From the NCBI RefSeq assembly GCF_001483135.1, contig NZ_LNAL01000003.1:372001-436000 (forward strand): a stretch of DNA of 64,000 nt, read 5' to 3'. The notes below the pieces were generated by a model. The model was given only the letters and a program-made list of their open reading frames with translations. It had not been told where the DNA came from and searched no databases. Source of the stretch: Solirubrum puertoriconensis. GTDB taxonomy: Bacteria > Bacteroidota > Bacteroidia > Cytophagales > Hymenobacteraceae. The translations under genes and the position numbers were made by a program. Shown in pieces: positions 446 through 62,977 of the stretch (position 1 is the stretch's first letter; the number at the start of each line of letters is the position of its first letter).

Positions 446-523
446 TGCACGTATAGTTGTTGCCTGGTTAATCGAAAATTTGCCTGTATTGGGTAGCTGC
501 CTAGGTAGCATTTACTTCTGCTT

Positions 524-1774
524 ATGACGCCACGTACAGCTAAGCGCGTACTGCTGCTGATACCGAACCTAGGGCTTGGAGGAGCCCAGCGAGTGTTTCA
601 CGACCATAGCGTGGAACTGGCCAAACACTACAACGTAACCGAAGCAGTATTCAACCTTGAGGGAGGCAATCTGTTTCCGAGCAACAATCCGGTAGAAAGC
701 TTAGAAGTAGCTGGCGGCGGCTCGGCCTTCGATAAGGTCCGGAATTTTGCGGCCCGCATTACCCGGCTGCGCGGCCTAAAGCAGCGGCTGCGCGCGGACG
801 TTTGCATCAGCCACTTGGAAGGAGCGGATTATGTGAACCTGCTAAGCAAAGGTTCGGAGAAGGTTATCCTGTGTATACACGGCTCTAAGCTGCACGACCA
901 AAACATTAGGGGAGCCGTGGGCTGGTTGCGCAAGAAGGTGTTAATGCCTAGCCTGTACAATCGCGCCGACAAGATTGTGACGGTTAGCCGCGACATCAAC
1001 CCGGAACTCATCAGCGGTTTCGGCGTGAAGCCCGAGAAAATACAGACGATCAATAACTTCTTCGAAGTAGATCGGATTACGGCGAAAGCGCAGGAGCCGC
1101 TTAGCGCCGAGGAGCAGGCAGTGTATGATTCGGCGCCGGTACTGGTGACTTCGGGCCGGCTTACCATTCAGAAAAACCAGGCGCCGTTGCTGGATAGTTT
1201 TGCCGCGCTGTTGCGACAGCAGACGGCCAAGCTCGTGTTTGTCGGCGACGGTGAACTGCGTGACGACTTAACCGCCCGCGCCCGGGCCCTAGGTCTGCGG
1301 GTATACGAGGCTTGGAACAACCACCAGCTCACGCCCAATTACGACGTGTATTTCGTAGGGCTGCAGCAAAATCCCTTTAAATACATCCGTCCGGCGGCAT
1401 TGTTTGTATTCCCTTCGGCTTGGGAAGGTTTTCCCATGGCCTTGGGAGAAGCTATGATTTGCGGGGTACCGGCAGTAACTACCGATTGCCCCACCGGACC
1501 GCGTGAAATTCTGGCACCCGCATCGACCGCCCCCGCTCAGCCCATTCGCCAAGCCGAAAGGGCCGAATTCGGAATGTTAATGCCCATGTTGAATCAAGCG
1601 GCAACGCTGGCTGCCGATCAGCGGGTATGGACTGAGACCATTGCCGCCTTACTGAACGATGAAGCAGAACGGCAGCGCCTTGGCAAGCTCGCTAGCCAAC
1701 GGATGCAAGACTTCACCCGCGAAAAGATTTTTGGGCAATGGGTGCAAGCCATCAACGAGGTGCTAGGCGCATGA
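524..1774 (+). CDS. Glycosyltransferase family 4
   Basis: 416 residues, a full GT-B enzyme. The N-terminal Rossmann half starts LLLIPNLGLGGAQR, where GGAQR (residues 19-23) is the usual GT4 glycine loop. The C-terminal half has the SGRLTIQKN hinge and a donor-site motif around residues 295-312 (SAWEGFPMALGEAM), whose two glutamates match the E-x7-E pattern of GT4 enzymes. No signal peptide or membrane segment is apparent, so it probably works at the cytoplasmic face. The next gene starts inside its stop codon (ATGA at 1771-1774), so the two are translationally coupled and probably act in the same glycan pathway. The sugar substrate is unknown. Confidence 0.9.
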   Translation: MTPRTAKRVLLLIPNLGLGGAQRVFHDHSVELAKHYNVTEAVFNLEGGNLFPSNNPVESLEVAGGGSAFDKVRNFAARITRLRGLKQRLRADVCISHLEGADYVNLLSKGSEKVILCIHGSKLHDQNIRGAVGWLRKKVLMPSLYNRADKIVTVSRDINPELISGFGVKPEKIQTINNFFEVDRITAKAQEPLSAEEQAVYDSAPVLVTSGRLTIQKNQAPLLDSFAALLRQQTAKLVFVGDGELRDDLTARARALGLRVYEAWNNHQLTPNYDVYFVGLQQNPFKYIRPAALFVFPSAWEGFPMALGEAMICGVPAVTTDCPTGPREILAPASTAPAQPIRQAERAEFGMLMPMLNQAATLAADQRVWTETIAALLNDEAERQRLGKLASQRMQDFTREKIFGQWVQAINEVLGA

Positions 1775-2931
1775 GCGAACAGTTCGTCAACCGACCAGTG
1801 CGCCCGGTCATCCTCATTGCGGATAACTCCACCGCAGTGACTGGAGCCCTAAATGCTATGCGGGGTGCTACAGATCGGTTGCAGCATCAGTTCGAGTTTG
1901 TGTACGTGCTGCCCAGCGGCAGCAAGGGCGTAGCTGTGCTCGAAGCCGCCGGCTACAAAGTGTACCAAGTGCCGTTTGTTGAGATAAGCAAGCGGGTGCG
2001 CAACCTGGTGTTGTATCCGTTTATGCTGCTGCTGAATGGCTGGCGATTGGCACGTATTACCCGCCGCGAAAAGGCCAGCGCGCTGCACATGAACGATTTT
2101 TACAACCTAACAGGAGTTGTTGCCCGAGCTTTTACGGCGCTGCCTTTGATTACGCACGTGCGCTTTCTGCCGCAAACGCAGGTGCAGCCCCTGGCGCGAA
2201 CTTGGCGTTGGCTAGCCGAGCATGTGGCGCAGCGCGTGGTGTGTGTATCGCAGGCTGTATACCGGTATTTTAGTCCGCTGCCGCGCGTGCGGGTAATTGC
2301 CGATCCAATTCCGGGTCAGGAAAAATACCCGCCCACCAGCGTAGCCGCCCGGGCCGACGGGACTGTGCGAATGCTCTACTTGAGCAATTATATACCTGGT
2401 AAAGGCCAGAACTTTGCTCTTGAAGCCTTCGGGCGTGCTTATGCCCAAGACACTCGGCTGCGGCTGCGCTTTATGGGCGGCGATATGGGGCTGGAGAAAA
2501 ACCGCGAATTCAAAGCTCAACTGGTAGCCGCAGTGGCTGATGCTGGGCTAAGCGAAGTAGTAACGTTTGGCGGCTTTGAGGCCGATGTAGAAGCTGTTAT
2601 TAAGCAGGCCGACATTGTGCTGAATTTTTCGGAGTCGGAATCGTTCTCGCTCACTTGCTTAGACGCGCTCTTTTTTGGCACACCGCTGATTGCCTCCGAT
2701 TGTGGCGGACCGGCGGAATTGTTTGAACACGGGCGCTCTGGGCTATTAGTGCCTAACCGCGATGTGCCTGCAATGGCTGAGGCCATGTTGCGTCTCGCCG
2801 CCGATCTGCCTTTGCGCCAACAGTTTGCCGAAGCTGGTCGGGCCTTTGTGCGGCATAAGTTCAGCCCCGAAGCCACTTACCTGCAATTGGGTGCGCTTTA
2901 CGAGGAGGTTTTGCGCAAACGAGCGAAGTAG
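1771..2931 (+). CDS. Glycosyltransferase family 4
   Basis: I chose the ATG at 1771, which overlaps the previous stop as ATGA, giving 386 residues; an upstream in-frame start at 1738 would add 11 residues lying inside the previous gene. The protein is GT-B/GT4: an N-terminal half opening VILIADNSTAVTGAL, a central turn LYLSNYIPGKGQ, and a C-terminal donor site with NFSESESFSLTCLDALFFG followed by DCGGPAEL. Its 3' end overlaps the convergent wecE gene by 34 nt. The gene carries no CCTAGG site, unlike most of its neighbours. Role: sugar transfer in surface polysaccharide assembly, inferred from family and context. Confidence 0.88.
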   Translation: MSEQFVNRPVRPVILIADNSTAVTGALNAMRGATDRLQHQFEFVYVLPSGSKGVAVLEAAGYKVYQVPFVEISKRVRNLVLYPFMLLLNGWRLARITRREKASALHMNDFYNLTGVVARAFTALPLITHVRFLPQTQVQPLARTWRWLAEHVAQRVVCVSQAVYRYFSPLPRVRVIADPIPGQEKYPPTSVAARADGTVRMLYLSNYIPGKGQNFALEAFGRAYAQDTRLRLRFMGGDMGLEKNREFKAQLVAAVADAGLSEVVTFGGFEADVEAVIKQADIVLNFSESESFSLTCLDALFFGTPLIASDCGGPAELFEHGRSGLLVPNRDVPAMAEAMLRLAADLPLRQQFAEAGRAFVRHKFSPEATYLQLGALYEEVLRKRAK

Positions 2932-4055
2932 CTTAGCACTGCCTCAATTACCCGCAACTGATCGTCTTCAGAAAGCTCGAAATACAGCGGCAGGCGCACC
3001 AAGCAATCGGCAAACCGTTGGGCGTTAGGCAAAGGCCGGCCGTCGTGCAGGGCTTGGTAATACGGGCTGTCGTGGAGCGTTTGGTAGTGAAAAACCGCCA
3101 GAATATTCTGCTCGGCTAGGTGCTGAATCAGCCGTTGCCGTTCGGGCAGGTTGCGGCACACCAAGTAGAATATGTGCCAATTGGGCTGCGCGTACGCTGG
3201 TATAACGGGTAGCTCGGCTAGTCCTTCGGTAGCAACTTCCCGAAAGGCATGGTGGTAGCGGTGCCACTGCTGGCGCCGTTGCTCAAGTATTCTAGCCTTT
3301 GCCTCCAGTTGTGCCCAGAGGTATGCGGCGTTCAGCTCCGACGGTAAAAACGACGAGCCTATATCAACCCACTGGTACTTGGCGGCCTCGCCCCGAAAAA
3401 AAGCGGCCCGGTTGGTGCCCTTTTCCCACATAATTTCGGCCCTAGGTGCTAGCTCGGGCGAGTTGATGGCCAGCAGCCCGCCTTCGCCGGCAATCAGGTT
3501 TTTGGTTTCGTGAAAGGAAAATGCGGCTAGCTGACCAAAGCTTCCTAACGGTTTTCCTAGGTGATAACTCTCGACGGCCTGCGCGGCATCCTCAATCACA
3601 GCCAGGTTAAAACGTTCAGCCAGGCTCATGATTGCAGCCATATTGCAGGAAACGCCGGCGTAGTGAACAGGTACAATAGCCCGGGTGCGCGGCGTAATTA
3701 GTGATTCGAGCTGCGAAACGTCGATGTTGGGGTGCTCGGCCGAACTATCGGCAAACACTATGCGCGCACCCCGGAGTACAAAAGCATTGGCGGTTGAGGT
3801 AAACGTAAACGACGGCACTACAACCTCGTCGCCGGGGTGTAAGCTCAGCAGCAGAGCTGCCATTTCGAGAGCCGCCGTGCCGCTGGTAGTCAACAGCGCT
3901 TTGTGGATGTGGTACTGTTGCTCGAAGTACGTTTGGCACTGCTTGGTAAACTGCCCATTACCCGATAATTGCCCTGCCTTAATTGCTTCCTGGATGTACA
4001 GCAACTCGCGGCCCGACTGGTAAGGTTTATTAAAGGGTATGTGCGTCGGCTTCAT
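2898..4055 (-). CDS. wecE: dTDP-4-amino-4,6-dideoxygalactose transaminase (WecE/RffA-like)
   Basis: PLP enzyme of the DegT/DnrJ/EryC1 sugar aminotransferase family. It matches remembered E. coli WecE along its length: IPFNKP at the N-terminus, EMAALLL, GDEVVVPSFTF, STANAFVLRGA, IVPVHYAGVSC, EDAAQ and SFHETKN. The lysine in HETKN (about residue 185) should form the internal aldimine and the Asp of EDAAQ should bind the PLP pyridine nitrogen. The reaction is amino transfer from glutamate to dTDP-4-keto-6-deoxyglucose, giving dTDP-Fuc4N. I chose the ATG at 4055 (MKPTHIPFNKP) over 4082 because family members start just before the IPFN block. It overlaps the upstream GT2 gene by 26 nt, suggesting an operon. 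No other dTDP-sugar gene lies in the window. Confidence 0.9.
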   Translation of the reverse strand: MKPTHIPFNKPYQSGRELLYIQEAIKAGQLSGNGQFTKQCQTYFEQQYHIHKALLTTSGTAALEMAALLLSLHPGDEVVVPSFTFTSTANAFVLRGARIVFADSSAEHPNIDVSQLESLITPRTRAIVPVHYAGVSCNMAAIMSLAERFNLAVIEDAAQAVESYHLGKPLGSFGQLAAFSFHETKNLIAGEGGLLAINSPELAPRAEIMWEKGTNRAAFFRGEAAKYQWVDIGSSFLPSELNAAYLWAQLEAKARILEQRRQQWHRYHHAFREVATEGLAELPVIPAYAQPNWHIFYLVCRNLPERQRLIQHLAEQNILAVFHYQTLHDSPYYQALHDGRPLPNAQRFADCLVRLPLYFELSEDDQLRVIEAVLSYFARLRKTSS

Positions 4056-4998
4056 GTGAGTTACGCGGGGTGGTAGCAGCAACTACGTACAGGGGCCGGT
4101 TGCGCACACCTTCAAATGTTTTACCAACATAAAGCCCCACAATCCCAAGCACCAGAATAACCAGCCCGGAGAAAAAGCTCATGAAAATGAACAAGCTGGC
4201 GTAGCCAGGTACCGTAATTTGGCCTAGGGCAAAACGAATCAGCGTAATCAACCCGAGCAGGAAGGCTACTACCGAGATCAGCAAGCCGGTGTAAACCGTC
4301 AGGCGCAGGGGTTTATCGGAATAGGCCAGCATGATGTCGGTAGCTAAGCGGAGCCTCCTACCTAGGTTGTAGGTAGTAGGGCGTTTGCTCTCTAAGTGCT
4401 GAACGGGTATGCTGCATTGCCGAAACCCAGCCCACCGCACCATGGTGGGGAAGTAGCGAATGCTCTCGCGCAATTGCCGTACAGTGTCAATCACACGTTG
4501 ATGGTAGAGGCCGAAGTTGGCAACTGCTGGGTTTTGTTTTACGCCCGTGAGGTACGACAGCGCCCGATAGAACAAGCTCGAGCTGGCGCGTTTCATCCAG
4601 CTGTCTTGGCGATGCTGGCGGGCCGCCAAGACTACATCGTAACCTTGTTGTGCTTGCTGGTACAACGCCGAAATCTCCTCCGGCCGGTCCTGCAAGTCGC
4701 AGTCCATCACCACAATCCAGGTGCCTTGCGCTATGTCCAAGCCGGCAGTTATAGCGTGGTGCTGACCAAAGTTTCTGCTTAGGCGCAACCCACGTATACG
4801 TGGGTTCCGAGTTGCTAACTCCTCGATGCAAGTCCAACTTGTATCGGTGCTGCCATCATCCACAAGAATGATTTCGTAATTACCTGAGATATGCGGCAGT
4901 TCTGCTACAAGTCGTTCCGCCAACTCGGGCAGCACAGCGGCAGCTTGGTATACCGGGCTGACAACCGAGATGAAAGGATGTTCTGGTGGAGTTGGCAT
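4030..4998 (-). CDS. GT2 glycosyltransferase, GtrB/ArnC type
   Basis: About 322 residues. The N-terminal GT-A domain opens with FISVVSPVYQ, has the nucleotide-binding VDDGSTD, then LSRNFGQHHAI and the metal-site VMDCDLQDRPEE. The C-terminal part has two hydrophobic hairpin segments (LLISVVAFLLGLITLI and FIFMSFFSGLVILVLGIVGLYVG). This layout is that of polyprenyl-phosphate glycosyltransferases (GtrB, ArnC, DPM1 class), which load a sugar onto undecaprenyl phosphate at the inner membrane. An ATG at 5019 is also in frame; 4998 is preferred because a TAnnTTTG promoter box at 5031-5038 would leave almost no leader for 5019. First gene of a two-gene unit with wecE. Confidence 0.88.
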   Translation of the reverse strand: MPTPPEHPFISVVSPVYQAAAVLPELAERLVAELPHISGNYEIILVDDGSTDTSWTCIEELATRNPRIRGLRLSRNFGQHHAITAGLDIAQGTWIVVMDCDLQDRPEEISALYQQAQQGYDVVLAARQHRQDSWMKRASSSLFYRALSYLTGVKQNPAVANFGLYHQRVIDTVRQLRESIRYFPTMVRWAGFRQCSIPVQHLESKRPTTYNLGRRLRLATDIMLAYSDKPLRLTVYTGLLISVVAFLLGLITLIRFALGQITVPGYASLFIFMSFFSGLVILVLGIVGLYVGKTFEGVRNRPLYVVAATTPRNSHEADAHTL

Positions 4999-5030
4999 TG
5001 CTTGCAGGCAGGGAAGCACCTAGGAGTGTT

Positions 5031-5038
5031 CAAAGATA
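5031..5038 (-). promoter_or_regulatory. Bacteroidota -7 box for the GT2-wecE unit
   Basis: On the minus strand the sequence is TATCTTTG, a full match to the Bacteroidota TAnnTTTG element. It lies 33 nt before the chosen start at 4998. I see no clear -33 TTTG. The match is only eight bases, so chance is possible. Confidence 0.45.
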
Positions 5039-5168
5039 GAGGAGCGGGCTACTTGCCACCCAATACAACTGCCAAGCACACCGGCGCTGCCGTTGTTGCC
5101 ATTGGCTGAAAGCGCTACCTAGGGCAGATCAAAACCCGGGAGGTAAGCAACAATCTTGGGCCTTGCCG

Positions 5169-5176
5169 TACCTTTG
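5169..5176 (+). promoter_or_regulatory. Bacteroidota -7 box before the GT4 gene at 5216
   Basis: TACCTTTG fits TAnnTTTG and lies 39 nt before the ATG at 5216, in the gap between divergent transcription units. The same octamer recurs before mutL, bamD and (minus strand) tilS. Confidence 0.45.
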
Positions 5177-5215
5177 CAAGCTGTAGTGTAGCCGCAAGGG
5201 CGGTTGGTTCAAGTT

Positions 5216-6301
5216 ATGCGCATCTTGTTTATAGTGCCGTATCCCATCGGCAAAGCCCCCTCTCAGCGTTTTCGGTTTGAGCAATACTTGGATTTCCTGA
5301 CGGCTCAAGGGCACACTTGGCACCTAGAATCCTTTGTTTCGGACAGCACGTGGGCCATTTTATACAAGCCCGGCCATGCCGTGGCGAAAGTGTTGGGCGT
5401 TTTGGGCGGGTTTTGGAGGCGCATTGTTGCGCTTTTCACGCAAGTGCCTAAAGCCGACTTTGTCTTCATTCACCGCGAGGCTTCGCCGATAGGGCCGCCG
5501 GTATTCGAATGGCTGATTGCCAAAGTGCTGGGCAAGCGCGTTATCTACGATTTCGACGATGCAATTTGGATTCCGAATACCTCTGAGGCCAACAAGATTG
5601 TAGCCGGCATAAAGTGGCATCACAAGGTGGATAGCATCTGCCGATGGGCTTATAAGGTGAGCTGTGGCAATGCTTACCTCCGCGATTATGCCCGGCAATT
5701 CAATGGTAACGCTGTTGTTAATCCAACTACCATCGATACCGAAAACCTGCACAACCAGATTAAGGTGCAAGGCGAGCGTACCACTGAGGGGCGCGTAGTG
5801 ATTGGCTGGACAGGCACGCACTCTACGCTGAAGTACCTCGACCAAGTGGTGCCCGTGCTGCAGCGGTTGGAGCAGCGGCCCGAGCTAAACTTTGAATTCC
5901 GGGTGATTTCCAATCAGCCGCCTCAGTTGCCCTTGCGCAGCTTGGTTTTTCAGCCTTGGCGCAAGGAAACGGAAATTGCCGACTTGCTCGGCTTTCATCT
6001 GGGGCTTATGCCCCTAGAAGACGATTTGTGGGCCAAGGGCAAGTGCGCATTCAAGGCACTGCAGTACATGGCCCTAGGTATGCCAGCGCTGGTTTCGCCG
6101 GTGGGCATGAACACCGAGGTGGTGCAGGACGACGAAAACGGTTACGTGTGCACCACCCCGCAGGAGTGGGAAGCTGCACTGCTACAGGTGCTGCAAGATG
6201 ACAGCCTGCGAACCAACCTAGGCAAAAACGCCCGCCGTACTATTGAAGAGCGTTATTCGGTAGTGGCCAACCGTCCTAACTTTTTAGGCCTGTTTAGCTG
6301 A
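5216..6301 (+). CDS. GT4-like glycosyltransferase
   Basis: 361 residues from the ATG at 5216 (MRILFIVPYPIGKAPSQRFR); an upstream GTG at 5204 is less likely. The N-terminal SQRFRFEQY block, then FIHREASPIGPP and RVIYDFDDAIW, are features of a GT4 subgroup often found in Bacteroidota polysaccharide loci. The C-terminal half has GWTGTHSTLKYL, then LGLMPLEDDLWAKGKCAFKALQYMALGMP, which holds the donor-binding loop. Probably cytoplasmic or peripheral to the membrane. Its last 49 nt overlap the convergent polymerase-like gene. Substrate unknown. Confidence 0.85.
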   Translation: MRILFIVPYPIGKAPSQRFRFEQYLDFLTAQGHTWHLESFVSDSTWAILYKPGHAVAKVLGVLGGFWRRIVALFTQVPKADFVFIHREASPIGPPVFEWLIAKVLGKRVIYDFDDAIWIPNTSEANKIVAGIKWHHKVDSICRWAYKVSCGNAYLRDYARQFNGNAVVNPTTIDTENLHNQIKVQGERTTEGRVVIGWTGTHSTLKYLDQVVPVLQRLEQRPELNFEFRVISNQPPQLPLRSLVFQPWRKETEIADLLGFHLGLMPLEDDLWAKGKCAFKALQYMALGMPALVSPVGMNTEVVQDDENGYVCTTPQEWEAALLQVLQDDSLRTNLGKNARRTIEERYSVVANRPNFLGLFS

Positions 6302-27080: not shown

Positions 27081-30059
27081 TCAACTTTTGCCCTTGTCGG
27101 CGTCGGTAAGAATAGACTTGTAGATAACATCGTGAATGCGCGTACGGATGTTGTACTGGCGCAGTTTGTTGTTGCCGGCATCGGGGTACACCCGGTTCGA
27201 CAAGAAAATATACAGAATCTTGTTGTCCGGATCCATCCATACGCAGGTACCCGTGAAGCCGGTATGGCCGAAGGTGCTGGCCGGCGACAGGTTGCTGGTA
27301 GGGCCTTCGGGCTTCGTAGGGTCGCCGTGGTCCCAACCTAGGCCGCGGCGGTTGGTAGTACTAGCCGACCGAGCAAACTCCGCTACTACGGGCGTGTTGA
27401 AGAACCGACGTCCGCCGTAACGGCCATTCTGCAGGTTCATCTGCATCAGGATAGCCAAGTCGTTGGCGTTGGAAAACAAGCCGGCGTGGCCCGCTACGCC
27501 ACCCATTAGGGCAGCGGCCTGGTCGTGCACGGTACCTTGCAGCTGGGTATGGCGGTAGTAGTTATCGTTTTCGGTGGGCGCAATGCACGACTTCGGGAAC
27601 CGCTGCAGCGGGTTGTAAGTCATGGTATTCAGGCCCAGCGGCGCGTAGAAATTGCGCTGCAGGAAAGCCTCAATCGGCTGATTTATTACTTTTTCGGCCA
27701 AGCGCTTCAGAATGATGAAGCTCAAATCGGAGTACTCGGTGGGGTACACCCCGCCTTTGCCTTTGGGCAACATCGAGCTGCGCTTGATCCACGTCCAGAC
27801 GGAGTCTTCGGCCGAACGGGATACGTAAGTGCCCGGAATTACTTCGCGGGCGAAGTCATCGGTGCGGGTGCTGGCGTAGAAGGTCGGCTTAAGGCCGCCC
27901 GTGCGCGTTACGGTTCGCTCCCAGGTAGGAATACCCGCTTTCAGGCCGGCTTGGTGCAGCAGCACCTGCCGCACAGTCATGTCCTTCTTGTTGGTGCCCT
28001 TCAGGTCGGGGAGGTAATCCGATACCTTGCTGTCGAGGTTCAGCTTGCCTTCGTCCTTCAGCCACATAATGGACTGCAGGGTGCCCGCTACTTTCGATAT
28101 CGAAGCCAGGTCGTAGAGGGTTTCGTTGGTTACAGGCTGGTTCTTGTCGTAGGTGCAATAACCAAAGCTCTTGTCGTAAACTACGGCGCCGTCTTTGGCC
28201 ACCAGTACTTGGCAACCAGGGGTAGCCGCGTAAGCAATGGCTTCGGTAGCAATGTTGTCAATCTGGGTTAGCACGCGCGAGTCGAGTCCAACGGCTTCGG
28301 GCGTAGCGTAGCGCAGGCGGCGGAAATCGGCAGTGGGCAACCCGGTACCGGCTAGCAGTTTCTCGGATACCGTAATAGGCAAACGACCCTTTGCCGGCAG
28401 CGCCCCGAAAAGAATTTGCGGCACCACCATTTGGGAGGTGAAATTGTCTTCGTAGCCGCATACCAGCGTGCGCGCTTCCTCTACATGCTTCAAGGCGTAA
28501 GCATTGCCCATCAGCACCACCACGGTTTTCTGCTTTTTGTTTTCCTGCAGCTTCTTGATAAACCGGAGGGCGCCGTCACCTAGGCCGTAGTTATGGGCCG
28601 GGGTGTTGTTCATGTTATGGAAGCTGACGACTACCGTGTTGTAGAGGCTCAGCTTCGGCAGCAGGTTGTCAAAGGTCGAATCGGGGGCGTAACGATTCGG
28701 AATGGCATAGGTAGCGCAAGGCATGTAGCGCTGCATGGCCTTGCCAAACGAGTTGCCATTGGGCGCGCCAATCGTAATCGAAGCGAGGCGCAGCGTATCC
28801 AGATTGGCAAAGGGAATGAGGTCGTCTTCGTTTTTCACGACCGTGGTGGCGTGCTCGTAGATGCTCTGCTGCACCACCCGGCTTAAGGGGCGGTTCAGGT
28901 TGTTCATCAGGTTTGGCACATCCACGCTAGGCTTGCGGTTAAGGCCAGCCCAAAACTTGGCGCGCAGCACTTTGCGCACTCGGTAGTCAATTTCTTCCTG
29001 AGAAATCTTGTTGGCCGCTACCATGCCCTTAATCTTCTGAACGGCCATGGGTACGTCCTCCGAAAACAGCAGAACATCATTGCCCGCCAACAGCGCAAGG
29101 GCATCAAGTTCGCCGGGCTTGTATAGGTCGGATACGCTCTTCATGTTGAGTGCATCTGTAAATACAAGCCCTTTATAGGCCATTTTTTCCTTCAGAAGCC
29201 CCGTTACTAGGTTGCGCGACAACGTTGCCGATTGGTTACGCACGGTGTCGAACAGAGGCATGTAAAGGTGTCCAACCATCACACCCATTACGCCCTGTTC
29301 AAAAGCTTTTTGGAAGGGGTATAGGTCGACGTTAGTGAGGCGCACCATGTCGGTGTTGATTACCGGCAAGGCAATGTGCGAGTCGGTGTCGGTGTCGCCG
29401 TGCCCGGGGAAGTGCTTGGCGACGGCAATTACGCCGTGGTCCTGCAAACCGCGAATGTAAGCCGAACCTAGTTTGGCTACTTGCTCCTTGTTTTCGCCGA
29501 ACGAGCGGTTGCCGATAACCGGGTTGTTAGGATTGGAGTTGACATCGACTACGGGCGAAAAGCTCACGTGCACACCTAGGGTGCGCATCTTCAGGGCAAT
29601 TTCGCGGCCCATCTGGTACACGAACCGGTCATCGTCCATGGCGCCGAGCGTCATTTGCTTGGCGAAGTGCGTGGAAGAGTCGAGGCGCATGTTCAGGCCC
29701 CACTCAGCATCCATGGCAATGAGCAAGGGCGTGCGGGCCGCCGCTTGGTAGCGGTTGGTAAGGATAGCCTGCCGACGCGGACCGCCCTGCAAAAACATCA
29801 GGCCGCCGATGTTGTACTCGCGCACCAAAAACTCGGTGTAGTTGGTGTGCTTCTTATCCTTGTTGGAGTAGGCCGCTACCATGAAGAGCTGACCTAGGCG
29901 CTGATCGGGAGTAAGGGAGGCAAATACCGAGTCGACCCACTGTTGCTCGGCCACGGAGCTGGGCCGCGCACCATCGTCGTGCGGAGTCGAAAACGACACG
30001 ATCAGACCCGTAACGGCCAACAGCAGCAGTACCAATCCGATCCGAAATTCCTTGCCCAT
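27081..30059 (-). CDS. GH3 beta-N-acetylhexosaminidase fused to serine beta-lactamase-type hydrolase
   Basis: 992 residues. A single N-terminal hydrophobic helix (GLVLLLLAVTGLIVSF) is a signal or anchor. Residues about 45-400 are glycoside hydrolase family 3 of NagZ type: FMVAAYSNKD, LLIAMDAEWGLNMRL and KHFPGHGDTDTDSH, whose Asp-His pair is the acid/base of NagZ. A linker domain (about 400-590) precedes a class C beta-lactamase/DD-peptidase fold with the Ser-x-x-Lys in YDLASISKVAG (about residue 654), a YSD in place of the usual YxN (about 773) and GHTGFTG (about 931). Likely job: trimming peptidoglycan or muropeptides in the periplasm. The fusion is known in Bacteroidota. Confidence 0.9.
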   Translation of the reverse strand: MGKEFRIGLVLLLLAVTGLIVSFSTPHDDGARPSSVAEQQWVDSVFASLTPDQRLGQLFMVAAYSNKDKKHTNYTEFLVREYNIGGLMFLQGGPRRQAILTNRYQAAARTPLLIAMDAEWGLNMRLDSSTHFAKQMTLGAMDDDRFVYQMGREIALKMRTLGVHVSFSPVVDVNSNPNNPVIGNRSFGENKEQVAKLGSAYIRGLQDHGVIAVAKHFPGHGDTDTDSHIALPVINTDMVRLTNVDLYPFQKAFEQGVMGVMVGHLYMPLFDTVRNQSATLSRNLVTGLLKEKMAYKGLVFTDALNMKSVSDLYKPGELDALALLAGNDVLLFSEDVPMAVQKIKGMVAANKISQEEIDYRVRKVLRAKFWAGLNRKPSVDVPNLMNNLNRPLSRVVQQSIYEHATTVVKNEDDLIPFANLDTLRLASITIGAPNGNSFGKAMQRYMPCATYAIPNRYAPDSTFDNLLPKLSLYNTVVVSFHNMNNTPAHNYGLGDGALRFIKKLQENKKQKTVVVLMGNAYALKHVEEARTLVCGYEDNFTSQMVVPQILFGALPAKGRLPITVSEKLLAGTGLPTADFRRLRYATPEAVGLDSRVLTQIDNIATEAIAYAATPGCQVLVAKDGAVVYDKSFGYCTYDKNQPVTNETLYDLASISKVAGTLQSIMWLKDEGKLNLDSKVSDYLPDLKGTNKKDMTVRQVLLHQAGLKAGIPTWERTVTRTGGLKPTFYASTRTDDFAREVIPGTYVSRSAEDSVWTWIKRSSMLPKGKGGVYPTEYSDLSFIILKRLAEKVINQPIEAFLQRNFYAPLGLNTMTYNPLQRFPKSCIAPTENDNYYRHTQLQGTVHDQAAALMGGVAGHAGLFSNANDLAILMQMNLQNGRYGGRRFFNTPVVAEFARSASTTNRRGLGWDHGDPTKPEGPTSNLSPASTFGHTGFTGTCVWMDPDNKILYIFLSNRVYPDAGNNKLRQYNIRTRIHDVIYKSILTDADKGKS

Positions 30060-46023: not shown

Positions 46024-46124
46024 GTAGCGCGGACTTTGCAGTCCGCGTCCTAGGATAGTAATTTCTGATCAGCTTAACGATTGAGACTACTATCTGCGGA
46101 CGCGGACTACAAAGTCCGCGCTAC
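46024..46124. repeat. Long imperfect hairpin, family B
   Basis: Arms of about 36 nt: left 46024-46059, right 46089-46124, with few mismatches. The outer ends read GTAGCGCGGACTTTG on both strands, and each arm holds its own small palindrome (GCGGACT with AGTCCGC). A partial copy of the end lies at 36288-36302. A CCTAGG lies in the left arm. No coding sequence. Confidence 0.85.
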
Positions 46125-46153
46125 TGCGTTCTGTGCCGTTCGGGCCGAAACCC

Positions 46154-53477: not shown

Positions 53478-53488
53478 CCAAGGCTGCG

Positions 53489-56667: not shown

Positions 56668-56943
56668 TCAGGCTACGGCTAAACCTAATTCAATATGCTT
56701 CGGGGTCATTGCAATGTTGTAGTCCTGAATCAACCGCTGTAGAATCTGCATGTCGCGCGGACAGTGACGGGCGAAATCCTCCCAGTTAATTATGTTTAGG
56801 TGTTCCGGTAGCTCCACAACTGCTACGATAGAGTCCCAGAAAGCGTCCCAATTTTCTCCGTACCATTCAGGAAAATCAAGCTTCTCTTTGAACAATTGAT
56901 GAATGGCTGCTTCATTAGTTATCCCAGAAAGATCAATAATCAT
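56668..56943 (-). CDS. Barstar-family protein (ribonuclease inhibitor-like)
   Basis: 91 residues. Fits barstar: IIDLSGITNEAAIHQLFKE, then the key loop-helix FPEWYGENWDAFWDSI, which in barstar binds the active site of barnase, then LNIINWEDF. Barstar proteins block a cognate ribonuclease toxin. No barnase-like gene lies next to it, so it may protect against an incoming toxin or control a host RNase. The gene sits in an AT-rich islet (45% GC in one 60-base line counted) unlike its neighbours, which points to transfer. Confidence 0.85.
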   Translation of the reverse strand: MIIDLSGITNEAAIHQLFKEKLDFPEWYGENWDAFWDSIVAVVELPEHLNIINWEDFARHCPRDMQILQRLIQDYNIAMTPKHIELGLAVA

Positions 56944-57180
56944 ACTTGTATGATATCCACAGGTGCGTAAAGAGCTGTTTTACTATGTCAAATCGAGGCA
57001 GTATAGGTTAACGTTATAAACATCGTATATGCTTTCTATTGAACGTCTTTATGTGGTGGCGAAGTAGTTCTTCGGCTTAGCCCGGATTATATAGGTCGAA
57101 TTGCTCTAGCCAAGTGAACCCAAAATTGGATGGTAATAGTAAAGCAGGTATAGTGCCTATATCTGTATTGACTATCAAAC

Positions 57181-57551
57181 CTAGGCTACCAGAGTAATTC
57201 CGTCCTCATTAGTTTGAAGGTTAGTTAGGATATTATCAGGAAATATATGGCCTGTTTCAATGGTTTTGATAGAACTAATCTTGGTGTTTGATGCTACTGT
57301 TCTAAACCAATAGCCTGGCTCTGGATCATTGAACTTTATAATTTGTTAAGCTTGCAAAATCTGCAAAAAAATACTTCGTCGAATCTATTGTCAGAACCTT
57401 CTGGCTGGGTATCATAGCACTCTAGCTTGAACGTTGCGTTTGCTGTATTGAAGTAAAATGCGTTTACATCCCATATAATTGAGATGTTGTCATAGTTTAG
57501 TAAGGATGCAATTAGTTTGGTCTCCGTTGAAGTGAATCTCAGATCTGTCAT
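57181..57551 (-). pseudogene. Frameshifted small gene in the AT-rich islet
   Basis: A 71-codon frame (57336-57551, opening MTDLRFTSTETKLIASLLNY) ends CKLNKL. Directly after it another frame without a stop continues about 52 codons, including FNDPEPGYWFRTVASNTKIS and IFPDNILTNLQTNEDG, to a TAG at 57181-57183. The 371-nt total is 3n+2, so one inserted base near 57345 would join the two into a protein of about 124 residues. Both parts look like real coding sequence. No family recognised. The islet context (33-35% GC in two 60-base lines counted) suggests an imported immunity-like gene that has decayed, or a sequencing error. The TAG is part of CCTAGG. Confidence 0.6.
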
Positions 57552-57633
57552 AGATAGAAATTATTTAGTGCTCTGCTCTTTTGCGATAAAACTGAGCAAG
57601 CGCACCAAGTACGGCTACTAAGTTAGTGCAACC

Positions 57634-59445
57634 TCACGCCGCCGTATCCTCCACCTCATCCCCATCATCCACCAGCACCTTCGCCAGCTTCTCAATATTG
57701 AGGCTGCGGGCCGAGGCGTCGAAGATTTCGCGGTAGGTGCCGCGCAGGTCGTAGAGCTGCTCGTGGGTGCCGCTTTCCACCATGCGGCCCTGCTTCATCA
57801 CGTAAATGCAATCGGCGTCGACAATCTGGGCCAGCGAGTGAGAGATGATGACCACTGTGCGGCCTTGCTTGATGGCATCGAGCGAGTTTTTGATTTGCTC
57901 GGTGGCAATGGCATCGAGCGAGGCGGTGGGCTCGTCGAGGAAGATGATGGGCGGGTTTTTCAGGAACAGGCGCGCAATGGCAATGCGCTGCTGCTGCCCG
58001 CCCGAGAGCTGCTGCGCATCGGACTGGTAGCCCTTAGGTAGCTGCATAATTTGCTCGTGCAGGTAGGCCTGTTTGGCGGCGGCCTGTATCTGCTCGAGGG
58101 TGGCGTCCATCACGCCGTAGCGGATGTTCTCTTCGATGGTGCCTTTGAAGATGTGGTTTTTCTGCAGCACCAGGCCAATTTGCTGGCGCAGGGCGTGCGT
58201 GTCGTAGTCGGCTAGGGGTTTGCCATCGAGCAGTAGGCGGCCGCTATCGGGCTGGTAAAACTTGCACAGCAGGTTGATGATGGTGCTCTTGCCCGCGCCT
58301 GAAAGGCCCACCAGCGCCGTGGTTTTGCCCGCCTCAATGGTGAGGCACACATCGTGTAGGGCTTGGGTGCCACTGGGGTAGGTAAAATCGACGTTGCAGA
58401 TATCGAAGGTGCCTTGCAGGTGCTGGGGCTGGAGCGGGCCGGTGGGCTCCTGGGCTTCCCGGGCGTCGAGGATGTCGAAGAAGCCCTCGGAGTAAGTGAG
58501 GGCGTCGTTCATTTCGTCGTAGATGCGGTGCAGCTGCCGGATGGGCGCCGATACATTGTTGAACAGCAGAATATGGAACATGATGGCCCCGATACTGATC
58601 TGCCGATCGAGCACCAGGTAAGCCGTAAGGATGATGATCAGCACCACCCCGATTTGCTCCACAAATGTTTTGAGGCCGTCGTACAGAAAGTTGAGCTTGC
58701 GGGTTTGCAGCTGCGTCTCCTGCAGGTTGTGTTGCAGGGCGGCTTGCTTTTGCTCCTCGTAATCTTCGCGCACAAAGCTCTTGATGACCACCGCCGAATC
58801 GATGACGTTGACGAGGCCTTGGCTGCGCGCCTCGCGCAAACCCCGCAGGGCGCGGCGCGTGCCGTTGAGGCGGTCGGCTTGCCGGTAGCTGAGCCAGAAG
58901 TACGCCGGCAGCACGGCAACGGCTACCAAGCCCACATACACGTTGGCCGAAAACATAATCACCAAAGCCACCACGGCATTGGCAAACAGCGGCAGGATGT
59001 CGATAAAGAAGTTTTGCACCAGCTTCATGAGGCTTTCCACGCCGCGGTCGATGCGGGTTTGCAGCTTGCCTGTTTGGTTGCCGGTATCGGCGTAGAAACC
59101 CAGCTGGTAGCTGAGCACCTGGTGCACGGCCTGCTGGTGCAGGGCGGTGGCTACGTTGATGCGGATTTTCTCGCCGAAGAACTTCTGCCCGAACTGGATA
59201 AAGGTGTTGACGATTTCCTTACCTAAGAGCAGCGCACTCACCACCGCCAGCATGGGCATACCAGCCGCCAACGAGGCGTTGCGGTTGAGCAAACTCTGCA
59301 CGGTATCCACGGTGTAGCGCAGCACGAAGGGGTTTACCTGCGCCGCCAACGAGCCCACCAGCGTGAGCAGCAATGTGGCAATTACCAGCCCGCGGTAAGG
59401 CCGAACATAGGGGAAGAGGCGTTGAATAATCTGCCAGAGGCTCAT
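57634..59445 (-). CDS. ABC transporter, fused membrane and ATPase domains (MsbA-like)
   Basis: 603 residues. Six hydrophobic helices in the first ~320 residues (VIATLLLTLVGSLAAQVNPF, LVKLVQNFFIDILPLFANAV-like and AVVALVIMFSANVYVGLVAV), then an ATPase domain with Walker A GLSGAGKST, Q-loop LVLQKNHIF, signature LSGGQQQR and Walker B IIFLDEPTAS with the His of VIISHSL. Half transporter that works as a dimer. The substrate could be lipid, drug or peptide. No CCTAGG site in 1.8 kb. Confidence 0.93.
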   Translation of the reverse strand: MSLWQIIQRLFPYVRPYRGLVIATLLLTLVGSLAAQVNPFVLRYTVDTVQSLLNRNASLAAGMPMLAVVSALLLGKEIVNTFIQFGQKFFGEKIRINVATALHQQAVHQVLSYQLGFYADTGNQTGKLQTRIDRGVESLMKLVQNFFIDILPLFANAVVALVIMFSANVYVGLVAVAVLPAYFWLSYRQADRLNGTRRALRGLREARSQGLVNVIDSAVVIKSFVREDYEEQKQAALQHNLQETQLQTRKLNFLYDGLKTFVEQIGVVLIIILTAYLVLDRQISIGAIMFHILLFNNVSAPIRQLHRIYDEMNDALTYSEGFFDILDAREAQEPTGPLQPQHLQGTFDICNVDFTYPSGTQALHDVCLTIEAGKTTALVGLSGAGKSTIINLLCKFYQPDSGRLLLDGKPLADYDTHALRQQIGLVLQKNHIFKGTIEENIRYGVMDATLEQIQAAAKQAYLHEQIMQLPKGYQSDAQQLSGGQQQRIAIARLFLKNPPIIFLDEPTASLDAIATEQIKNSLDAIKQGRTVVIISHSLAQIVDADCIYVMKQGRMVESGTHEQLYDLRGTYREIFDASARSLNIEKLAKVLVDDGDEVEDTAA

Positions 59446-59652
59446 TGTGTGGTAAGCGGCTACAGTAGGCGTGTAGCCGGTTAGACGAGCTCTACAGCGG
59501 CGGGGTTATCAACGGTAGGCTGCTCCTAGGTGGCGCAAGCAACCAGGCTCACCTAGGGCCGAGCCGAACGCCCCGGCGCAACTGCCGTACAGCCAATGCT
59601 AAGCCGAGCCGCGGGCAGGTGGTCCGCAGGGCATCGGCGGCTCCATTGCCGC

Positions 59653-61881
59653 ATGGAACCGCAAACCCCCACCATTGGCCAAGCCCTGAACCGGGTTGAT
59701 GGCTACCAGAAAGTAACGGGCCAGGCGCGCTATGCCGCCGAACACCCGGTAGGCAACGTGGCGTACGGCGTGCTGGTAACCAGTACGGTTGCCCGCGGCC
59801 GCATCAGCACCCTCGATACGCAAGCCGCCGAGCAGGCGCCCGGCGTACTGGCCGTGCTCACGTACCGCAACTCGCCCGGTGTGCCCAGCTACCGGCAAAC
59901 CAAAGCCAACAACAACCCGCGCCTCGAAGGGCAGGAGCTGCGCGTGTTCCACGACGATGAAATTCACTTCAGCAACCAGCCGGTAGCCCTGGCCATTGCC
60001 GATACCCTGGAGCGGGCCCAACACGCGGCCTCGTTGGTGCGCGTGGCGTACGCCACCACTGGCCCCGCGCAAACCGAGCTAAGCGCCCACCTAGGGCGCA
60101 GCATCGAGCCCAAAAAAACCGAAGACCACCTGCGCGGCCGCCCCGATGCCTGGCGCAGCGCCCCCGTACGCCTCGAGCAGGAGTACCGCACGCCCGTGCA
60201 GGTGCACAACCCGCTGGAGCCCCACGCCGCCATTGCCCAGTGGCAGGGCAACAAGCTGGTGGTGTACAACAAAACGCAGGCGCCCAGCGTGGCCAAGCGC
60301 GATTTGATGCGCATGTTTCAGTTGCCGCCCGAAAACGTGCAGGTGTACTCGCCGTTTGTGGGCGGGGCGTTTGGCGGTGCTTCGCGGATATGGCCGCAGG
60401 AGGTTGCCGCCATTTTGGGGGCGCGGCTCGTAGGCCGCCCCGTAAAGGTGGTGCTGGCCCGCGAGCAAATGTTTAACCTGGTGGGCTACCGCCCGCACGC
60501 CATCCAAAAAATCAGCCTAGGTGCCACCGCCACCGGGCAACTGGTGGGCATGCGGCACGAGGCCTGCGGGCAAACCTCGCGCTACGAGCAGTTTGTGGAG
60601 CGCATTGTGCACCCGAGCAAATCGGCCTACCGCTGCCCCAACATGCAGGCCATTTACCGCATCGTGCCCCTCGACCTCAGCACCCCGGCCTGGACGCGCG
60701 GCCCCGGCGAAACCAGCGGCTCCTTCGCCCTCGAGTCGGCCATGGATGAGCTGGCCTACGCCCTGAACATGGACCCCCTAACCCTGCGCCTGCAAAATTT
60801 TGCCGATGCCGACCCCGCCAGCAACAAGCCGTGGTCGAGCAACCAGCTGCGCCGCTGCTACGCGCTGGGGGCCGAGCGGTTCGGCTGGAGCAAGCGCCCG
60901 GCGCAGCCCCGCAGCCTGCGCGAGGGCGAGTGGCTGATTGGCTACGGCATGGCCATGGGTATTTACAAAGCTGAGCGCAGCAAAGCTGCGGCGCGCGCCC
61001 AGCTTACCCCCGATGGCACCCTGCTGGTGCAAAGCGCCACCGCCGATGTGGGCCCCGGCACGGGCACCATCATGTCGCAGATTGCGGCCGATGCCAGCGG
61101 CGTGCCGGTAGCGCAGGTGCGCTTTGAGCTGGGCAACTCGTCGTTGCCGCCTGCGCCGGGGCAGTACGGCTCGCACACGGCGGCCTCGGTGGGCTCGGCG
61201 GTGCACGCGGTTTGCCAAGCCCTGCAGCAAGAGCTTCTGGCCCTGGCCGTACGCACCCCTGCCTGGGCCAATCGTAACCTAGGGCCCGCCGATGTAGTGG
61301 CCCGCAACGGCCGCGTGCATCTCGCCATCGATGCCGACACCCAGCTTAGCTACGCCGATATCCTGCGCCAGCACAACCTGCCCAAGCTCGAGCTGACGCG
61401 CGAAGTAGACACCAACCCTGAGCAGGAGAAGTACTCGGGCAAGTCGTTTTGCGCCAACTTTGTGGAGGTGCGCGTGCACGAGCCCACCGGCGAGGTGCGC
61501 CTGAGCCGCGTGGTATCGGCGTTGGATGTGGGCCGCGTGCTAAACCCAAAAACGGCTCGTTCGCAGGTGTATGGCTCCATTGTGTGGGGCATTGGGTTGG
61601 CGCTGATGGAGGACGCCCGCCTCGACCACCGCTACGGCCGCTTCATCAACCCCGATCTGGCCGAGTACCACGTGCCCGTGTGCGCCGATGTGCCCGCCAT
61701 CGAGGTGCACTTTGTGGAAGAACCCGACCTGCGCCTCGACCCTATGGGCGCCAAGGGTCTGGGTGAAATAGGACTGATTGGCTTTACGGCGGCCATTGCC
61801 AACGCCGTGTACCACGCCACCGGCAAGCGCATCCGCGAGCTGCCTATTACTCCCGATAAGCTGCTCGAGGAAACGACCTAG
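59653..61881 (+). CDS. Molybdopterin-binding aldehyde oxidoreductase/xanthine dehydrogenase large subunit
   Basis: 742 residues from the ATG at 59653 (MEPQTPTIGQALNRVDGYQK), just before the conserved VDGYQKVTGQARYAAE. Family blocks: PLEPHAAIAQW, GGAFGGASR, RGPGETSGSFALESAMDELA, ATADVGPGTGT, GQYGSHTAASVG and the catalytic Glu (about residue 705) in GAKGLGEIG. It oxidises aldehydes or purines at a Mo centre. The usual 2Fe-2S and FAD subunit genes do not lie beside it (upstream is a divergent ABC transporter, downstream a convergent hydrolase). No signal or Tat motif seen. Stop TAG is part of CCTAGG. Confidence 0.92.
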   Translation: MEPQTPTIGQALNRVDGYQKVTGQARYAAEHPVGNVAYGVLVTSTVARGRISTLDTQAAEQAPGVLAVLTYRNSPGVPSYRQTKANNNPRLEGQELRVFHDDEIHFSNQPVALAIADTLERAQHAASLVRVAYATTGPAQTELSAHLGRSIEPKKTEDHLRGRPDAWRSAPVRLEQEYRTPVQVHNPLEPHAAIAQWQGNKLVVYNKTQAPSVAKRDLMRMFQLPPENVQVYSPFVGGAFGGASRIWPQEVAAILGARLVGRPVKVVLAREQMFNLVGYRPHAIQKISLGATATGQLVGMRHEACGQTSRYEQFVERIVHPSKSAYRCPNMQAIYRIVPLDLSTPAWTRGPGETSGSFALESAMDELAYALNMDPLTLRLQNFADADPASNKPWSSNQLRRCYALGAERFGWSKRPAQPRSLREGEWLIGYGMAMGIYKAERSKAAARAQLTPDGTLLVQSATADVGPGTGTIMSQIAADASGVPVAQVRFELGNSSLPPAPGQYGSHTAASVGSAVHAVCQALQQELLALAVRTPAWANRNLGPADVVARNGRVHLAIDADTQLSYADILRQHNLPKLELTREVDTNPEQEKYSGKSFCANFVEVRVHEPTGEVRLSRVVSALDVGRVLNPKTARSQVYGSIVWGIGLALMEDARLDHRYGRFINPDLAEYHVPVCADVPAIEVHFVEEPDLRLDPMGAKGLGEIGLIGFTAAIANAVYHATGKRIRELPITPDKLLEETT

Positions 61882-61933
61882 GGCTGCGCCTTAACTTGTC
61901 GGAAACCCGGTTGCGCTATCCGAGTCGCACAAG

Positions 61934-62977
61934 CTAGCCTTTGCGCTCGGTTTTGCGCAGAAACTTAATCAGGGTTGGGAAGTAATGCTGCGGGTCGTCC
62001 CACATGGCGTAGTGCGAGCCTTCGGGGCAGATGTAGTGCTGACTGTTGGGGATGCGCCGCTGCATAAACTCAATGTCGGCTACCGGAATGAAGTCGTGCT
62101 TGGAGCCGATGATAAGCGTAGGCGGTTTGATGCCAGCCAGCCGCTCGCTGAAATCCCAAGCCAGCATGTAGGGCATAAAATAGCCGGCGTAGGTGCGGGT
62201 AATGTGCGCTTGGCTGCGCGTAAACGTGGGCGGCTCTTGCGGCAGGCGCATCATGTGCAGGCTTCGGAACTCCTTGGTTACGGCCGGCGTGATGTACGGC
62301 GAAAGCGCTACCAAACCCATGGTATCGAGGCCGGCTATGGTTTTGCCATCCTTGGCCGTGTGCCGCCGAATGATATCGGCATATTGGCTGTAGCGGTGCT
62401 TGTTGAATACCGTGGCTTTGTAGCCGATGTTGGAGGTAATCAGCCCTTTGATGTGTTGCGGGTATTTGGTTGCGTATTCCAGCGCCAGCATGCCGCCCCA
62501 CGAGTGCCCGAGCAGGTAAAAGCTTTCCAGACCTAGGGCTTGGCGCACTTGCTCTACCTCCTCCACAAAGCGGTCAATGCGCCATACCTCTTTGTCAGGG
62601 GTTTTGTCGGAATGGTACGAGTTGAGCTGGTCGTAGTAGTACAGCTCTACGCCTTCTTTGGCCAGGTGCTCCGGAAAGTTCTCGAAGTACTCATGGGTGT
62701 TGCCGGGGCCGCCGTGCAGCACCAGCAGCTTAATCTTGCCTTGCCCCACGCGCTGCGTCCAAACCTTGTACTTGCCATCGATGGTAACCATTTGCACACC
62801 CGGCGCGCGCATTTTGGCGGCGTAGCTGCTGTCGGGTGCTTGGGCTTGCGCCCAGGCACAGGGCATGCTGAACAGGAGGAGGAGCAGGGCTAGGCAGTGC
62901 TTCAAAATACAGGAGTTAGGAATGCTGGGCACAAATAAAAAACCGTGGAAAGATAGGCAGCCGAGTGGGCTACGCAA
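61934..62977 (-). CDS. Secreted proline iminopeptidase-like alpha/beta hydrolase
   Basis: 347 residues if read from 62977; a TTG start at about 62902 would give a cleaner signal peptide (KHCLALLLLLFSMPCAWAQ). Alpha/beta hydrolase: oxyanion HGGPGNTHEYF, nucleophile GHSWGGMLALEYA, catalytic Asp in IGSKHDFIPV and His in EGSHYAMWDD. HGGPG marks the S33 peptidase group, which releases N-terminal proline. The signal peptide places it in the periplasm, unlike the cytosolic classic enzyme. Confidence 0.9.
   Translation of the reverse strand: MRSPLGCLSFHGFLFVPSIPNSCILKHCLALLLLLFSMPCAWAQAQAPDSSYAAKMRAPGVQMVTIDGKYKVWTQRVGQGKIKLLVLHGGPGNTHEYFENFPEHLAKEGVELYYYDQLNSYHSDKTPDKEVWRIDRFVEEVEQVRQALGLESFYLLGHSWGGMLALEYATKYPQHIKGLITSNIGYKATVFNKHRYSQYADIIRRHTAKDGKTIAGLDTMGLVALSPYITPAVTKEFRSLHMMRLPQEPPTFTRSQAHITRTYAGYFMPYMLAWDFSERLAGIKPPTLIIGSKHDFIPVADIEFMQRRIPNSQHYICPEGSHYAMWDDPQHYFPTLIKFLRKTERKG

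Follow-up and report, generated by a model that had tools for sequence, protein, structure and literature searches.

A directional CCTAGG word in the genome of Solirubrum puertoriconensis is one dialect in a family of lineage-specific iterated words in Hymenobacter

Introduction

Several kinds of short words are over-represented in bacterial genomes. The uptake signal sequences (USS) of Pasteurellaceae are short, non-palindromic words that are iterated in thousands of copies, and Chi sites as well as the FtsK-orienting polar sequences (KOPS) are short directional over-represented octamers. Vsr performs a local, sequence-reading repair, the context-dependent bias of which shifts the word frequencies of a genome. 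The DNA uptake sequences (DUS) of Neisseriaceae occur, according to the available sections of the respective publication (PMC3630211), in eight clade-specific dialects with an invariant 5'-CTG-3' core. In cyanobacteria, the highly iterated palindrome HIP1 (GCGATCGC) and alternate HIPs are present about once per kb, sporadically among relatives and with a shared core; the explanatory model given in that account rests on methyltransferases (Elhai, 2015; PMC4390886). The cause of the HIP1 flooding is unsettled. Here we describe an iterated word with the core CCTAGG in a stretch of 64,000 nucleotides from Solirubrum puertoriconensis (Hymenobacteraceae), called "the window" in the following. The word is one dialect in a family of lineage-specific, genome-wide iterated words in Hymenobacter.

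The likeness to the HIP sites comprises a density of about 1 per kb, the genome-wide occurrence, the sporadic presence among relatives, and the existence of alternative words with a common core. The density and the palindromic core are also seen here, but the effective word is the directional ACCTAGG(G), the dialects TGGCCTAG and CCTACCCC are non-palindromic, and no methyltransferase of six tested families is common to the motif-rich Hymenobacteraceae. With DUS and USS the system shares short non-palindromic words at about 1 per kb, in thousands of copies on both strands, dialects and, by our own reading, a common core, CCTA. However, the motif-rich genomes lack a type IV pilus motor (full-strength match to PF00437), and redundancy between sites is found mainly below 80 bp. 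In contrast to the action of Vsr, transversions also lead into the word, and Vsr itself (PF03852) was found in just 3 of 13 motif-rich and in 3 of 11 other genomes, and is thus absent from 10 of the 13. Unlike Chi and KOPS, the word has no strong strand skew in the dialects D1-D4 (defined below), and close relatives are without it. No iterated word in Bacteroidota was recognized among the matches listed from the open-licence literature, and CCTAGG and Hymenobacter were not mentioned together in that literature.

Abundance and form of the word

The window comprises positions 372001-436000 of contig C3 in the genome G000 (4.80 Mb). It contains exactly 93 copies of CCTAGG, the first at 500-505 and the last at 62532-62537. 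The original prediction, which was made from the sequence alone, had arrived at about 93 copies by hand counting and had recognized the iterated span, although its ends (502-62535) were off by 2. It had also put the expected number at about 20 copies, and Markov models of the orders 0, 1, 2, and 3 yield 19.8, 13.6, 13.3, and 19.8, respectively. CCTAGG is the highest-ranked 6-mer of the window at orders 1-3. An order-4 model, which had been suggested as a check, raises the expectation to 71.8 and removes CCTAGG from the top 6-mers, yet this figure is circular: most occurrences of the 5-mers CCTAG and CTAGG are due to the palindrome itself. Similar counts for other CTAG hexamers had been named as potential counter-evidence, but GCTAGC, ACTAGT, and TCTAGA are found 20, 1, and 0 times in the window. 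The longer forms of CCTAGG, GCCCTAGGT and ACCTAGGGC, are present in 14 and 15 copies, with at most 0.6 copies expected for each (orders 0-3). The excess extends to the whole genome, which has 6,212 copies of CCTAGG versus 136 of the reversed control GGATCC.

For a three-way comparison, 464 kb of G000 were set beside 400 kb of the motif-rich genome G200 and 400 kb of a syntenic stretch of G197, a motif-poor genome of the same genus. There are 663 copies in the G000 stretch versus 8 in that of G197, and the densities per 100 kb are 142.9 (G000), 141.0 (G200), and 2.0 (G197). Words that differ from CCTAGG by one base reach 0.98-2.63 times the G197 level, with two exceptions, namely CCCAGG/CCTGGG (0.57 and 0.69) and CCGAGG/CCTCGG (0.75 and 0.95).

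The copies are not restricted to genes, which were called throughout with a simple caller that we wrote. In the window, 27 of the 93 copies are non-genic or at a gene edge, which agrees with the predicted excess between genes (about 26 of 93), given that the non-genic share is just 12.6%. In 464 kb of G000, the density is 2.28 per kb outside versus 1.21 per kb inside genes, and 424 of the 447 genic copies have a single codon phase, xxC CTA GGx. This uniform phase would be in accordance with an origin of the word from codon usage or base composition; a repetitive element and an artefact of the assembly belong to the same group of explanations, the probability of which we regard as negligible: the density is about twofold higher outside genes, CTA is not kept outside the motif context, the flanks hold little information past 2-3 bases, and the word is seen in 13 genomes. 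After orientation of the G000 and G200 sites, no position beyond -3 to +7 carries more than 0.033 bit; therefore, the word is not a dispersed repeat element, and no homology past it was found at these sites.

The unit is the directional ACCTAGG, with ACCTAGGG as its best form, and it occurs on both strands, in genic as well as in non-genic DNA. Exactly one of the two flanking bases, A at -1 or T at +6, is present at 79 of the 93 window copies (both at 4, neither at 10), so the flanks are not random, as had been noted before. The same is true for 566 of 663 sites in G000 (both 27, neither 70) and 511 of 564 sites in G200 (both 10, neither 43). Saturation can be read from leucine codons in the context xC-CTN-GGy, in which the choice among CTA, CTC, CTG, and CTT is free, as the share of CTA. 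Over all C-CTN-GG contexts, this share is 73.7% in G000, 66.6% in G200, and 1.3% in G197. In AC-CTN-GGG, it rises to 98% in G000 (n = 49) and 93% in G200 (n = 59), compared to 0 of 7 in G197; in CC-CTN-GGT, the values are 89% (n = 158), 94% (n = 124), and 0 of 4, respectively. With the flanks G...C, it is 15% in both G000 (n = 53) and G200 (n = 52). Therefore, the word is ACCTAGG in either direction, and G is preferred to C and T as the next base. The palindrome is thereby ruled out as the functional unit, because one flank matters strongly and non-palindromic dialects exist. The original prediction had thus rightly seen the preferred extended flanks, but the palindrome it proposed has to be replaced by the directional ACCTAGG(G), with non-palindromic CCTA words in other lineages.

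The either-or pattern of the flanks is largely a matter of Gly codons, as GGT reaches a high frequency only in the absence of the A; at such sites, the Gly codon moves from GGC to GGT. Avoidance of the form with both flanks, ACCTAGGT, was rejected as its main cause, because CTA still makes up 76% (n = 17) and 62% (n = 8) in AC-CTN-GGT, values that lie under those of the best contexts.

Distribution and dialects

Among 204 Hymenobacteraceae genomes, CCTAGG is present in 1,209-8,806 copies in 13 genomes (G000, G200, G203, G023, G029, G034, G036, G065, G081, G097, G116, G122, and G130) and in 54-888 copies in the other 191. The split runs through the genus of the window, five of the eight genomes of which have just 123-249 copies. 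The named relatives found in a scan with the MutL of the window belong mostly to Hymenobacter, and CCTAGG exceeds 0.5 per kb in six of 80 named loci (Hymenobacter sp. BT559, H. setariae, H. cavernae, H. crusticola, H. fodinae, and H. wooponensis). A second sharp split concerns the control word GGATCC, which has 0-10 copies in 32 of the 204 genomes and up to 645 elsewhere; its near-absence looks like restriction-site avoidance.

Six dialects were read. Those outside D1 rest on at least 200 kb for G116, G065, G081, and G036 and on about 17-62 kb for each of the others, and for G023 and G097 the reading was limited to a 13.6-kb contig and to 40 kb of a 102-kb contig. D1 (G000, G200, G203) has ACCTAGG(G), D2 (G116, H. 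cavernae, H. crusticola, and, from 20 kb, G029) has ACCTAGST, and D3 (G065) has CCCTAGG. The word of D4 (G036, G034/H. fodinae, H. wooponensis, G130) is TGGCCTAG, which is not a palindrome and occurs 180 times in 200 kb of G036 versus 10.3 expected copies; G122 is placed here tentatively, with GCCTAGGC at 3 of 11 sites. D5 (G081, BT559, H. setariae) has [AC]CCTAGG. D6 (Hymenobacter sp. UV11, H. citatus, H. ginkgonis, H. profundi) has another non-palindromic word, CCTACCCC, with 68 versus 5.2 expected copies in 82.6 kb of its loci. CCTACCCC reaches 1,019-5,122 copies in 14 of the 204 genomes and at most 536 in all others, and none of these 14 belongs to the 13 CCTAGG-rich genomes. All six words contain CCTA, by our reading, which is not a statistical test.

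In a MutL tree with 62 rows, each of the dialects D1, D2, D4, and D5 is a single clade, and D6 needs three changes; in total, seven dialect changes are required, compared to a mean of 12.8 after shuffling. No strong word was visible in 22 kb of the nearest sisters of D1 on this tree, H. edaphi and H. jeollabukensis.

Maintenance, turnover and range of action

In the synonymous contexts that suit it best, the word is close to saturation, and it is maintained today. Between G000 and G200, at positions with identical flanks, CTA is kept in 207 of 232 cases in the motif context and in 78 of 295 cases elsewhere, and a change from CTG to CTA has occurred in 12 of 19 versus 97 of 2,468 cases. Of the G000 sites that can be aligned with G200 (87.7% identity), 348 of 492 are CCTAGG there, compared to 2 of 272 in G197; for the sites of the window alone, these numbers are 52 of 71 (G200) and 0 of 46 (G197). 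At the 272 sites, G197 has CCCAGG (43), CCCAGC (37), and CCGAGG (34) instead. When the 77 sites that are one core base away from G197 are oriented, 43 transitions and 34 transversions are obtained. A three-species alignment (52.7 kb aligned to G203) comprises 72 sites, 35 of which are present in all three species, 16 in two, and 21 in one.

Genes that are unmatched in the relatives are saturated to the same degree as shared genes. In G000, saturation is 0.923 for genes to which the stretches fetched from G200 and G197 offer no match (n = 52), 0.831 for genes restricted to the clade (n = 118), and 0.862 for core genes (n = 275). The emptiest 5-kb stretches of G000 (C3: 172001-177000, 357001-362000, and 367001-372000) contain 0-1 CCTAGG at a GC content of 0.456-0.458 and do not align to the fetched G200 or G197 stretches; the last two are directly upstream of the window. 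These AT-rich, CCTAGG-poor stretches are probably recently acquired DNA.

The sites are not strictly independent of each other: they interfere mainly within about 80 bp, and crowding within 1 kb has a weaker effect. Were a single copy per kb enough, a clear drop in saturation would be expected at sites with neighbors. When saturation is pooled over five genomes and compared with a null from 300 shuffles, sites with their nearest copy 8-40 bp away have a value of 0.578 (null 0.795, sd 0.056; n = 45), and none of the shuffles is as low. For distances of 40-80 bp, saturation is 0.753 (null 0.819; n = 85), and 12 of the 300 shuffles are as low. Between 80 and 400 bp, the bins are inside the null. 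Close neighbors (8-120 bp) have no clear preference for an orientation (same 80/102, divergent 22/29, convergent 25/35).

One explanation for such spacing effects is that the words are binding sites of an abundant chromosomal protein (for nucleoid structure, segregation, or the control of recombination), which are selected for a tiny benefit per site that shrinks with crowding. The interference over about 80 bp resembles a protein footprint, the weak 1-kb effect resembles diminishing returns, and a small, constant selection per site can produce the observed saturation. However, close relatives manage without such a word, the saturation of the best contexts seems far above what a spacing function would need, and the lack of a strong strand skew in D1-D4 means that the sites are not KOPS-like. 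This explanation is the foremost of the alternatives, but we consider it unlikely.

The data on strands are as follows. In D1, 296 forward and 324 reverse copies are found in one genome and 247 and 284 in the other, and the two strands differ by at most 11 copies in any 50-kb bin of these genomes, G000 and G200. In three other genomes, the largest difference in a 50-kb bin is 17 (G116, 421 copies in 200 kb). A strand or replichore bias of the directional form, which had been considered before, is thus not strongly developed in D1-D4. The situation in D6 is less clear: the four D6 loci have 35 forward and 33 reverse copies of CCTACCCC, and in the 14 genomes rich in this word the totals per strand are 41-59%, some of them mildly unequal (G046 974/1367, G037 2039/2563). 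In the whole genome G000, CCTACCCC is present 48 times forward versus 152 times reverse, an imbalance well above that of most other genomes.

Comparison with known causes of iterated words

A HIP-type explanation holds that a methyltransferase encoded by the genome has the word as its site, and that the word accumulates via methylation-directed repair (Elhai, 2015). Comparable density, sporadic presence, and alternative words with a shared core are in its favor. However, at least two of the dialects are non-palindromic, and none of the methyltransferase families PF00145 and PF01555 (18 genomes each) and PF02086, PF02384, PF07669, and PF20473 (24 genomes each) is present in all 13 rich genomes, other families not having been searched. 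G000 has a single match across the six families, to PF01555 on contig C4; G200 is devoid of PF01555 and has PF02384 and PF20473 together with a weak PF07669, which G000 lacks, so that none of the six families is common to both. A methylase tracking the presence of the word, which the original prediction had envisaged, was therefore not found among these families, and we regard this explanation as improbable. G200 also encodes an MmeI-like restriction-modification protein (G200:C1:2004862-2005722) with an open frame of 1,204 residues; it was discarded as a candidate, because the corresponding place in G000 has nothing that matches the stretch.

Alternatively, the word might be a DNA uptake sequence that spreads by molecular drive. 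A surface receptor would prefer DNA that carries the word, recombination would spread it, and the dialects would reflect receptor variants, as in Neisseriaceae. This would be in line with a density of about 1 per kb on both strands, non-palindromic and mostly clade-specific dialects with a common core, and the weak redundancy at the kilobase scale in D1. The dialects resemble those of DUS, eight of which share a 5'-CTG-3' core (PMC3630211), and natural transformation exists in Bacteroidota (Riemerella). In contrast, the redundancy acts mainly below 80 bp, and saturation is as high in genes that lack counterparts in the fetched stretches as in shared genes. Furthermore, only four of the 204 genomes match the type IV pilus motor PF00437 at full strength, and none of these is rich in CCTAGG or CCTACCCC; neither the pilin itself nor other uptake routes were searched. 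Weak partial matches are present in 72 further genomes, including one that is rich in CCTACCCC (G012) and none of the 13 CCTAGG-rich genomes. Uptake comes second among the alternatives, and it too seems unlikely. The resemblance to HIP1 and uptake sequences that had been pointed out originally holds for the general type of iterated motif, but within the searched scope there is neither a matching methyltransferase nor type IV pilus machinery nor, in D1-D4, a strong strand skew.

A proposed mechanism

We favor a locally acting agent of repair or conversion that would read the sequence, to which we assign a probability of somewhat more than one in three. The bias toward a directional word is uniform, strong, mainly local, and current, and it comes in dialects, which suggests an agent that reads one strand and matches the other to it. 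Such a sequence-specific agent would be gained and lost between lineages, would vary in its flank preference, and would act locally on DNA. It might be triggered by a one-base difference between the strands of a near-match, after a replication error or in a recombination heteroduplex, and might then favor the strand that spells the word, e.g., by nicking the other strand or by resynthesizing a short patch on it. Sequences one base away would thereby become the word, and mutations away from it would be reversed. Biased conversion of this kind would not require a benefit at any single site. It would be akin to the biased-repair model for cyanobacterial HIP sites, minus the shared DNA methyltransferase. 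A more detailed version, which is doubtful, is a methylation-independent word-writing system that would be gained and lost among Hymenobacter lineages. It would consist of a fixed part that reads CCTA and a variable part that reads the flank, and would convert near-matches into its own octamer throughout the genome; every lineage would thereby have a dialect of its own, with a switch of the dialect or its loss being possible.

A repair or conversion agent is consistent with the split into rich and poor genomes inside one genus and family, the near saturation and current maintenance, the variety of changes that lead into the word (transitions, transversions, and GGC to GGT), and the interference below 80 bp. 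It would also be in agreement with unshared genes being as saturated as shared ones, and with the variation of the CCTA words, four dialects of which are monophyletic on the MutL tree.

Several points weigh against such an agent. Neither the six methyltransferase families nor Vsr nor the type IV pilus motor tracks the word. An effect at the kilobase scale is expected of uptake or of binding-site selection, and also of marks for mismatch repair, not of a purely local writer, and a weak effect of this kind is present. The 400-800 bp bin is slightly over the null (0.864 versus 0.835; 291 of 300 shuffles at or below). In two D1 genomes, sites without a copy within 80 bp have a saturation of 0.886 when 0-2 copies are present in 1 kb (n = 429) versus 0.817 with at least three copies (n = 317), a difference that is reached in 2 of 300 shuffles; pooled over five genomes it is weaker (0.863 versus 0.830; 29 of 300). 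The weak effect also appears by neighbor count. Therefore, our confidence in a writer is lowered, and that in uptake and binding-site selection is raised. In addition, a small additive benefit per site under selection would yield the same saturation and turnover, the footprint of a bound protein would account for the short-range interference no less well than a repair patch, and CCTA as the part common to the six words is our reading.

If a protein does rewrite near-matches, codon choice would be under a strong molecular drive, and the protein would have a sequence-directed conversion activity that merits isolation. A HIP-like phenomenon is here seen in another phylum, with a clear presence or absence among related species, several dialects, and no methyltransferase shared among the six families. 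The question thus becomes testable by the comparison of sister species and by looking for the gene whose presence follows that of the word.

Sites in the window and additional observations

The 93 exact CCTAGG cores (500-62537, no strand assigned) start at positions 500, 568, 1288, 3441, 3556, 4223, 4361, 5019, 5118, 6073, 6217, 6839, 7589, 7919, 8609, 9489, 10907, 11063, 12269, 12698, 13990, 14173, 14491, 15009, 15707, 17291, 18045, 19996, 21501, 21801, 22557, 23520, 23970, 24466, 24974, 26076, 26954, 27337, 28579, 29575, 29893, 31439, 31565, 32141, 32483, 32528, 33416, 33801, 34095, 36617, 36723, 37539, 38011, 38338, 38446, 39639, 41875, 42116, 42653, 43176, 43632, 44089, 44282, 45203, 45478, 46049, 46743, 47621, 47912, 48395, 48759, 49396, 49437, 49620, 49840, 52058, 52266, 53705, 53816, 54086, 54230, 54630, 55608, 55913, 56393, 57180, 59525, 59552, 60090, 60516, 61278, 61877, and 62532.

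The best octamer, ACCTAGGG, is present in 19 copies on the plus strand (567-62538), starting at 567, 5117, 15706, 24465, 29574, 36616, 42115, 45477, 48758, 49436, 49839, 53704, 54629, 55607, 59551, 60089, 61277, 61876, and 62531. On the minus strand there are 22 copies (1287-56399; CCCTAGGT when read on the plus strand) with starts at 1287, 3440, 6072, 11062, 13989, 14172, 17290, 19995, 22556, 23519, 24973, 26953, 31438, 38010, 38337, 38445, 39638, 43631, 52057, 54229, 55912, and 56392. Within 5018-57186, the plus strand carries 16 copies of ACCTAGGC, which start at 6216, 12268, 14490, 18044, 23969, 27336, 28578, 29892, 33415, 33800, 34094, 37538, 42652, 44088, 52265, and 57179, and seven copies of ACCTAGGA (5018, 7918, 15008, 21500, 31564, 32140, and 49619). 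The minus strand has, within 499-60522, 12 copies of ACCTAGGC (GCCTAGGT when read on the plus strand), starting at 499, 7588, 9488, 32527, 43175, 44281, 46742, 47620, 48394, 53815, 54085, and 60515, and three copies of TCCTAGGT (3555, 12697, and 59524). Both flanks are present in the four copies of ACCTAGGT (4360-36729, no strand assigned), which start at 4360, 21800, 32482, and 36722.

A dispersed hairpin of about 105 bp with long, near-complementary arms is located at 46024-46129 (DNA fold -37.8 kcal/mol, z -10.4). Among the matches listed from a search of eight genomes, it was found only in the D1 genomes G000, G200, and G203, and it is absent from 400 kb of G197. It was rejected as a source of CCTAGG, because it contains one core in the window, has a few copies per 400 kb, and has not kept the core in most of the copies seen. 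The 7-mers TCGCGCA and CATTGCC are moderately over-represented in G000, G200, and G197, i.e., in motif-rich and motif-poor genomes alike, and the excess of TCGCGCA recurs in several other sequence sets that were used for the dialect word counts. Lastly, the minus strand of the window encodes at 27081-30059 a fusion protein of 992 residues, in which a glycoside hydrolase family 3 domain is joined to a beta-lactamase-type serine hydrolase domain.

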